Assembly: GCF_036924645.1 (NCBI RefSeq) | Contig: NZ_JAZHRX010000001.1 | Coordinates: 806,001 to 870,000 of the forward strand | DNA from: Bradyrhizobium sp. AZCC 2176 | GTDB lineage: Bacteria > Pseudomonadota > Alphaproteobacteria > Rhizobiales > Xanthobacteraceae | Direction: 5' to 3' | DNA length: 64,000 nt | Part shown: piece by piece, positions 222 through 60,763 of the stretch | Position numbering within the stretch: the first letter of the stretch is position 1 | Layout: each line of letters starts with the position of its first letter | Translations under genes and position numbers: made by a program | Notes under the pieces: model-generated | What the model was told of the DNA's origin: nothing | Seen by the model: only the letters and a program-made list of their open reading frames with translations | The model's database searches: none

Positions 222-572
222 CTACGCCGCCAGGGCCTTCATTTCCTTGTAAAGATCGGATTCTCCTTCGAATCCGATGCCCGGTAGGTCCCAGACCTTG
301 TCCGGATCGAGATTGTCGCCATCGGCATCGAGCAGCGTCTTTGGATCGGCCTCCTTGAGCCGCGGCGCAAAGCGTTCGCGGATCAGTCCGCCCTGCCCGT
401 AGCGGCCATTGGAATTGAAGCCGTAACCGACCACGCGCTTGCCGTCGCGCACGGCATCGGTGACGACGGCGACCAGGCTCGTCGTCATCTTGGTGAAGTC
501 GATATAGGCGTTGCGGATCGGCGAGGAGATCGGTTTTGTGATTTCGCAGACGTCGACGATACGGACGGACAT
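222..572 (-). pseudogene. tarD: D-tartrate dehydratase remnant with in-frame internal deletion
   Basis: The frame encodes 116 residues. Residues 1 to about 94 match, from memory, the N-terminus of the enolase-superfamily D-tartrate dehydratase of Bradyrhizobium (start MSVRIVDV, ending NLDPDKVW). The last 22 residues (DLPGIGFEG to KEMKALAA) match that protein's extreme C-terminus. The intact enzyme has about 389 residues, so some 270 are missing: the whole barrel with its catalytic lysines, histidine and the Asp/Glu magnesium ligands. The join preserves frame, near position 288 (codons for W then D). The product cannot be a dehydratase. A short protein could still be made, because start and stop are intact. 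Confidence 0.8.
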
Positions 573-598: not shown

Positions 599-682
599 TC
601 ATTGCGAGGAGCGAAGCGACGAAGCAATCCATCAAGCAACGCGTACGGAGGTATGGATTGCTTCGCTTCGCTCGCAATGACG
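599..682. repeat. palindromic intergenic repeat (ATTGCGAG/CTCGCAAT type)
   Basis: The left arm TCATTGCGAG-GAGCGAAGCGA and the right arm ending TCGCTCGCAATGAC are inverted copies around a short middle. The same arms recur at 60684-60763 between kdpC and kdpB. This is a dispersed repeat of Bradyrhizobium intergenic spaces. It sits between the DUF3297 gene and the tarD remnant. Confidence 0.8.
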
Positions 683-696
683 AACGAAAGACCGCG

Positions 697-966
697 TCAA
701 GACGAACTCTTGTCGCGGAAATACGGCTCGACCGGGCCGTGCACCTTGATCGTCAGCGGGTTGCCGTAGCGGTCCTTGGCGTTGCCTGCGGTGACGCGCA
801 CCCAGCCCTCGCTGATGCAATACTCCTCGACATTGGTTTTCTCGACACCCTTGAAACGAATGCCGACGTCGCGCGCGAGGATCTCGGCATTGTAGTACGG
901 GCTGTTCGGATCGACCGAGAGACGGTCGGGGAATTGGTCGTTCATCGCTTTGTTGGTCTCGCTCAC
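697..966 (-). CDS. DUF3297 family protein
   Basis: A small conserved protein of unknown function, 89 residues if translated from the GTG at 964-966. That GTG overlaps the TGA of the glutathione peroxidase gene (GTGA) and has GAGG about eight bases upstream. An ATG at 943-945 would give 82 residues. The core (PDRLSVDP, GIRFKGVEKTNVEEYC, EGWVRV, NPLTIK) is the DUF3297 signature. It is soluble, with no signal peptide. Overlap with the peroxidase gene implies co-translation and perhaps a shared stress role, but no activity is known for the family. Confidence 0.85.
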   Translation of the reverse strand: MSETNKAMNDQFPDRLSVDPNSPYYNAEILARDVGIRFKGVEKTNVEEYCISEGWVRVTAGNAKDRYGNPLTIKVHGPVEPYFRDKSSS

Positions 967-1439
967 AGCAGTGCCTCGATTTCTCTTCGTAGTCCCTCGG
1001 GCGTCACGGTCGGGGCATAGCGCCCGACCACCCTGCCCGACCGGTCGACCAGGAATTTGGTGAAATTCCATTTGATCGACGAACCGAGCAGCCCGGATTT
1101 CTCATTCTTCAGGTGGTTGAACAACGGATGCGCATGGCTGCCGTTGACGTCGATCTTGGCGAACATCGGAAACGTCACGTCATATTTGCGTTCGCAGAAC
1201 TCTCCGATCTGTTTGGCGTCGCCCGGCTCTTGCCCGCCGAACTGGTTGCAAGGAAAACCGAGCACCGCAAAGCCACGCGGCGCGAGTTCGCGTTGCAATT
1301 GCTCGAGGCCCTTGTACTGCGGCGTGAATCCGCAGGCGCTCGCGGTGTTGACGATCAGGAGCACCTGACCTTCAAACCGCTTCAGCGGCACCTCGTCGCC
1401 GGCGAGCGACTGCGCCGTAAAATCATAAACGCCTGGCAT
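963..1439 (-). CDS. glutathione peroxidase family protein
   Basis: This 158-residue thiol peroxidase reduces hydroperoxides, probably with thioredoxin or glutathione as donor. The family motifs are all present: the peroxidatic cysteine in NTASACGFTPQY, the second conserved cysteine in GFPCNQFGGQEPG, and WNFTKFLVD. The active site uses Cys rather than selenocysteine. Length is normal for the bacterial BtuE/BsaA-like group, and there is no signal peptide. The stop overlaps the start of the DUF3297 gene, and the amidase gene ends only 15 bases upstream, so the three genes are probably one minus-strand transcript. Confidence 0.93.
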   Translation of the reverse strand: MPGVYDFTAQSLAGDEVPLKRFEGQVLLIVNTASACGFTPQYKGLEQLQRELAPRGFAVLGFPCNQFGGQEPGDAKQIGEFCERKYDVTFPMFAKIDVNGSHAHPLFNHLKNEKSGLLGSSIKWNFTKFLVDRSGRVVGRYAPTVTPEGLRREIEALL

Positions 1440-51498: not shown

Positions 51499-52380
51499 AT
51501 GCCCCCCCGCGCCTATTGGAAAGGCACGTTAAAACTCTCCCTGGTGTCATGTCCGGTGGTGCTGTATCCGGCCTCGACATCGGTCGAGAAAACCCGCTTT
51601 CACATGATCAACAGAGAGACCGGCAACCGGCTGAAGCAACAGATGATCGACGCCGAGACCGGCGACGTCGTCGAGAGCGACCAGAAGGGCCGCGGCTATG
51701 AGCTAAAAAAGGGCCAGTATGTCGAGATCGAAAAGGAGGAACTCGAAGCTGTCCAGATCGAGAGCAATCACACCATCGAGATCGACAGTTTCGTGCCGAG
51801 GGAAGAAATCGACAAGCGATATTATAACCATCCCTATTACGTCGCCCCCGACGGCAAGGCGGCGGTGGACGCCTTCGCCGTGATCCGCGACGCCATGAAG
51901 GATGAGGACCGGGTCGCGCTGGCGCGCATCGTGCTGACCAACCGCGAGCACGTCATGGCGATCGAGCCGCTCGGCAAGGGCCTGCTCGGCACCACGCTGC
52001 GATATCCTTACGAACTGCGCGACGAGGAGGACTATTTCGACGGCATCAAGACGCCCAGGATCACCAAGGACATGGTCGAACTCGCCGGCCATATCCTGCA
52101 TACCAAGGCCGCGCATTTCGATCCGTCGAAATTCAAGGACGAATACGAAGACGCGCTGAGGGCGCTGGTGCGCCGGAAAGCCTCCGGCAAGCCGGTCAAG
52201 GTCGCTGAGCGCGAGGAGAAGCCCGACAACGTCATCAACCTGATGGACGCGCTCAAGGCGAGCCTTAAGGGCAAGTCGGCGAAACGGCGGGCGCATGCCT
52301 CGACCGCGCGGCGAGCACCGGCACGCCGGACGGCAAAAAGGGCGCACCGCTCCGCGGCCAGGCATCGCAAGGCAAGCTGA
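51499..52380 (+). CDS. ku: Ku end-binding protein
   Basis: A 293-residue homodimeric ring protein that binds DNA ends and recruits LigD. Family blocks are PRAYWKGTLKLSLVSCPV, RFHMINRETGNRL, VESDQKGRGYELKKGQYV, DKRYYNHPYYV and KTPRITKDMVELA. The start at 51499 has GGAG seven bases upstream; earlier in-frame ATGs lack a site. After about residue 250 there is a Lys/Arg/Ala-rich tail, typical of rhizobial and mycobacterial Ku, which may aid DNA binding. Confidence 0.96.
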   Translation: MPPRAYWKGTLKLSLVSCPVVLYPASTSVEKTRFHMINRETGNRLKQQMIDAETGDVVESDQKGRGYELKKGQYVEIEKEELEAVQIESNHTIEIDSFVPREEIDKRYYNHPYYVAPDGKAAVDAFAVIRDAMKDEDRVALARIVLTNREHVMAIEPLGKGLLGTTLRYPYELRDEEDYFDGIKTPRITKDMVELAGHILHTKAAHFDPSKFKDEYEDALRALVRRKASGKPVKVAEREEKPDNVINLMDALKASLKGKSAKRRAHASTARRAPARRTAKRAHRSAARHRKAS

Positions 52381-60665: not shown

Positions 60666-60683
60666 TGTGCGTCTCCTTGGTTC

Positions 60684-60763
60684 TCATTGCGAGCGAAGCG
60701 AAGCAAGCCATGGGGCGGCAAAGAAAGAATGGATTGCTTGGTCGCTCCGCTCCTCGCAATGAC
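60684..60763. repeat. palindromic intergenic repeat (ATTGCGAG/CTCGCAAT type)
   Basis: TCATTGCGAGCGAAGCGAAG at the left and GCTCCGCTCCTCGCAATGAC at the right are inverted arms, the same family as at 599-682. It lies inside the kdp operon between kdpC and kdpB, so the transcript would carry a long hairpin there. Confidence 0.8.

Follow-up and report, generated by a model that had tools for sequence, protein, structure and literature searches.

An open reading frame of 116 codons, running from ATG to TAG at 222..572 on the minus strand of the window (the whole 64,000-nucleotide stretch of Bradyrhizobium sp. AZCC 2176 DNA analysed here), raises the question of whether a frame that keeps both ends of a metabolic enzyme is a working small protein, a product of assembly or a gene in decay. 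An earlier note, made from the sequence alone, had read it as the first ~94 residues of D-tartrate dehydratase fused to the last ~22.

The remnant ORF consists of the two ends of tarD1

The name TarD for the D-tartrate dehydratase of B. japonicum appears in a passage of PMC10079672, which gives Yew 2006 as its source. The ORF comprises residues 1–94 and the last 22 residues of the 389-residue enzyme. Its 5′ part (codons 1–94; 291..572, minus strand) showed 99% protein identity to residues 1–94 of B. murdochi TarD1 and 97.9% DNA identity to strain CSA112, while its 3′ part (the last 22 codons and the stop; 222..290, minus strand) matched residues 368–389. In a phmmer search of PDB sequences, remnant residues 1–96 aligned with residues 1–96, and residues 94–115 with residues 367–388, of the 389-residue enolase-superfamily protein Bll6730 (2dw6/2dw7), which we take to be B. 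japonicum TarD. The two stretches abut (E 4.3e-59 in all; i-E 3.9e-05 for the tail stretch alone), and the fusion that had been proposed is borne out by the ORF and this alignment. The 22-residue tail also aligned with the end of the enzyme in all 17 other rows of alignment A1, which confirms its assignment.

Despite this high identity at both ends, the remnant lacks residues 95–367 of TarD, including K184 and H322, presumably catalytic, and D213, E239 and E265, presumably metal-binding. The barrel domain MR_MLE_C, with its catalytic and metal-binding residues, occupies residues 167–377 in the intact CSA112 protein, and nearly all of it lies in the missing segment. The remnant itself matched no Pfam or NCBIfam family.

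Upstream of the remnant and on the same strand lie a DUF3297 gene (697..960, minus; Pfam PF11730, E 1.4e-40) and then a glutathione-peroxidase-family gene (963..1439, minus; Pfam PF00255, E 1.5e-42). Just upstream of the remnant start is an unstranded, dispersed palindromic repeat (599..681), a 28-base arm of which is exact at 654–681 and recurs with 2 mismatches at 60683–60710 (0 expected by shuffling). The region downstream of tarD1 varies among relatives (L001 1–1500; L003, L004, L008, L142): between tarD1 and a GNAT-like gene there is an acyltransferase-like gene, a phosphoglycerate-dehydrogenase-like gene or neither, these names being our own presumptive readings of the sequences.

Size and junction of the deletion

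As the gene of intact relatives has 389 codons, 819 bp, or 273 codons, are missing from the remnant. DNA alignment with five close relatives placed the remnant in two blocks 819 bp apart, with the junction at 288..293 (minus strand). The join had been put near position 288; the junction itself stands, and its position is about 290/291, with a 2-bp ambiguity. The borders of the missing segment share 2 bp (GG) in all five relatives (B. murdochi, CSA112, sp. 190, SRL28 and AUGA SZCCT0283), and when 819-bp deletions were placed at random along these regions, 13–21% had an overlap at least as long. None of the three relatives searched contained a direct-repeat family with a spacing of 819 bp. Direct-repeat slippage was rejected on these two grounds, and the short direct repeats that had been proposed to flank the missing segment are absent from the intact relatives examined. 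Description of the deletion as unusually clean was overstated, because any deletion keeps the frame one time in three; chance is sufficient for the kept frame, which needs no explanation.

The genome carries three Ku genes, one of them inside the window, where a Ku-domain match exceeded the PF02735 cut-off at 51535..52080 on the plus strand (G000:C1:857535–858080). Joining with little homology is possible because of these genes, and end joining may have made the join. A genome with three Ku genes may also be of interest for studies of bacterial end joining. Two database proteins (P0003 and P0066) leave the TarD frame just past the VWA stretch, near the start of the window's deletion; these exits could mark a minor hot spot, or stem from sequencing errors or chance.

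The deletion was seen in one of 265 genomes

A search of 265 same-genus genomes for a 32-base pattern spanning the junction, allowing up to 3 mismatches, gave a match in one only, the window's own. On this scale the deletion is confined to a single genome, and a deletion common to a clade was rejected. Intact orthologs occupy the same place in relatives, and the named relatives L003–L007 combine the same upstream neighbours with an intact 389-codon gene. A scan of named genomes gave no full match to residues 1–116 in the 80 loci kept, of at least 561 places encoding a relative, a scan in which records of the window's own genome were possibly left out.

In a protein search, only one of the 120 matches listed out of 2851 covered both ends of the remnant. 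This metagenomic protein, P0001, has 168 residues and comes from a tarD gene that has lost another internal segment in frame, running to VWTTL (about residue 97) and resuming at CIPHGG; it may be an assembly product, because its contig is only 921 bases long. The window's own 116-residue protein was absent among the same 120 matches, and there is therefore no independent record of the remnant protein. Judged by titles, none of the papers listed in literature searches deals with decay of this gene.

The absence of the protein from those matches, and the existence of a single assembly, would agree with the assembly collapse that the earlier note had raised, in which an intact gene would have lost its middle only in the assembled sequence. 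We regard such an artefact as very unlikely. The junction has no repeat to collapse on, the remnant lies on one contig of 7,146,351 bases (completeness 99.99), and its tail carries 3 private changes, one of them at an otherwise invariant residue (see below). Furthermore, the genome has no copy of the missing middle beyond its 86%-identical counterpart in a second homolog.

A second full-length homolog is present in the genome

This second homolog is full-length, is located at 2,891,744–2,892,904 (2.89 Mb) of the genome, and is 83–84% identical to intact TarD1 proteins. It agreed with B. murdochi TarD1 at all 14 positions checked, including K184, D213, E239, E265 and H322. No NCBIfam cut-off was reached by this protein or by the intact TarD of CSA112. 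Its gene follows one for the C4-dicarboxylate transporter DctA (NF002461, above cut-off), with a LysR-type regulator gene beyond on the opposite strand. The homolog probably acts on D-tartrate, and its presence would make tarD1 dispensable. Loss of tartrate use, another explanation that had been offered for the remnant, is not implied, because a second full-length homolog stands beside a DctA-type transporter gene. Movement of the missing middle to another location was also considered and rejected: besides the second homolog, there were six remoter matches, of 29–38% identity.

tarD1 has been broken repeatedly in the genus

The 265 genomes were sorted by their matches to the CSA112 protein, by identity and coverage, by eye and not by tree. 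The tarD1 type alone was found in 209 genomes, the second type alone in 25 (75–86% identity, match from residue 2 or 3) and both types in 15; nine were ambiguous (86–87% over 1–389), one had a partial match at 71% (G041), and six had no match (G006, G035, G115, G137, G179 and G250). Second matches at 31–49% in G004, G192, G213 and G228 were kept out of the second type.

tarD1 is broken in 4 of the 15 genomes with both types and full-length in the other 11. Besides the window's genome, these are G269, in which an extra base after codon 41 causes a frameshift; G028 (matching B. valentinum LmjM3), in which homology stops at about codon 78–79; and G099, with a frame break at codon 22–23 and one TGA counted in the match. 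Among the 209 genomes with tarD1 only, it is clearly broken in four: G178, where it is split near residue 238 by an IS110-family transposase gene (L176 2282–3439, minus strand), and G077, G118 and G235, whose frame breaks are in draft genomes and are possibly sequencing errors. A fifth, G072, in which tarD1 ends at residue 317, was left out of the four clear breaks. Partial matches in G016, G030, G033, G091, G249 and G268 were apparently cut by contig ends. The difference between 4/15 and 4/209 gave a Fisher p of 8e-4, or 0.001 with G072 counted; leaving out the window's genome raised these to 0.006 and 0.009, and all four values ignore shared ancestry. Redundancy is not required for the loss of tarD1, because G077, G118, G178 and G235 are broken without a second copy.

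The two ends of the remnant appear to differ in ancestry

The 5′ part has its closest counterpart in CSA112, with 6 differences in 282 sites (15 to the next nearest), while the tail is furthest from CSA112 among the 23 compared, with 18 differences in 69. The largest tail difference was 13 in 126 intact-gene pairs with 1–15 differences in the 5′ part, a set that still includes some near-duplicate genomes. In the tree of the upstream region, the window was placed beside SRL28 (support 49), within a wider group (75) of the window, SRL28, G269, AUGA283, sp. 190, G204, G205, G054 and G019. The 5′-part tree grouped the window with CSA112 (90) and then with B. valentinum (77), and the best matches of the downstream region were G054 and G269 (88–89%). 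Because the trees and best matches of the parts disagree, a recombination tract probably ends within the deleted segment or at its border, with modest support, and the pattern suggests imported DNA reaching into tarD1.

The deletion might have occurred during the import itself, if a 5′ segment like that of CSA112 or B. valentinum recombined homologously on one side and, on the other, became linked to the resident tail by illegitimate joining. In PMC6382021, this homology-facilitated illegitimate recombination is described in naturally transformable bacteria, from laboratory transformation. The locus resembles that process in its discordant ancestry across a low-homology junction; it differs in that the process is known there from laboratory transformation and not as a deletion of this kind. 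The contrast between the two ends and the grouping of the 5′ part away from the upstream region speak for such an origin, which we nevertheless think unlikely: the CSA112 pair was chosen for being extreme, the stretches compared are short, the upstream grouping has modest support, and the import may have happened separately from the deletion. The fuller proposal, that deletion and mosaic 5′ end arose together in this way during natural DNA import and left a translated, barrel-less cap fragment, appears scarcely credible. Should import and deletion have coincided, the locus would offer a natural case for testing in more strains.

Age of the deletion and fate of the peptide

Among 25 relatives, the 5′ part had no substitution private to the window in 282 sites, compared with 9 in 1245 sites of the upstream region and, among 23 relatives, 3 in the 69-base tail (p = 0.007 for tail versus 5′ part, 0.02 for tail versus upstream and 0.38 for 5′ part versus upstream). 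Codon 104 in the tail, corresponding to K377 of the full enzyme, encodes glutamate; lysine is present in all 121 distinct full-length homologs. On these counts the deletion appears relatively recent, and the change at K377 suggests that constraint on the tail has begun to relax. No trace of decay is seen in the 5′ part, where the numbers are too small to prove constraint. Where a recent recombination event had been suggested, the in-frame internal deletion stands and "relatively recent" fits.

The lack of private substitutions in the 5′ part is also what might be expected if the 116-residue product had been maintained as a small working protein built from parts of the cap domain. Start, stop and frame are retained together with a plausible ribosome-binding stretch (aagggg), and in P0001 the gene likewise seems to have lost an internal segment in frame, albeit on a short contig. 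However, AlphaFold2 gave no confident fold of the remnant (18-sequence alignment; mean pLDDT 52.8, pTM 0.47, tail below 50), the invariant lysine is lost, no family matched, and the form was seen in no other of the 265 genomes. We give this reading hardly any credence. The earlier note had allowed that the residual peptide might still be made; a working peptide is not supported by the predicted fold or by the fate of the lysine, a function is possible though unsupported, and the peptide is presumably without one.

Discussion

Taken together, the remnant is probably a pseudogene of the widespread tarD1, produced by one deletion and tolerated through the second homolog. A single 819-bp event would have removed residues 95–367, ends sharing 2 bp would have been united by illegitimate or Ku-type end joining, the frame would have been retained by chance, and the remnant could persist through the second full-length homolog. 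Ordinary decay of a spare gene is the most likely course because the genome keeps that copy. The remnant resembles bacterial pseudogenes formed by loss of an internal segment with short homology at the junction, in that the ends are kept, the middle is lost with a 2-bp overlap at the join, the form occurs in one genome only and a second full-length homolog is present; it differs in that the frame happens to be kept and the two ends seem to be of different ancestry.

The locus is a clear example of the decay of a spare metabolic gene, within a genus in which the same gene has been lost through several kinds of lesion. It also calls for caution in annotation: good ends and an open frame do not add up to a working enzyme, and a lost copy does not amount to a lost trait.
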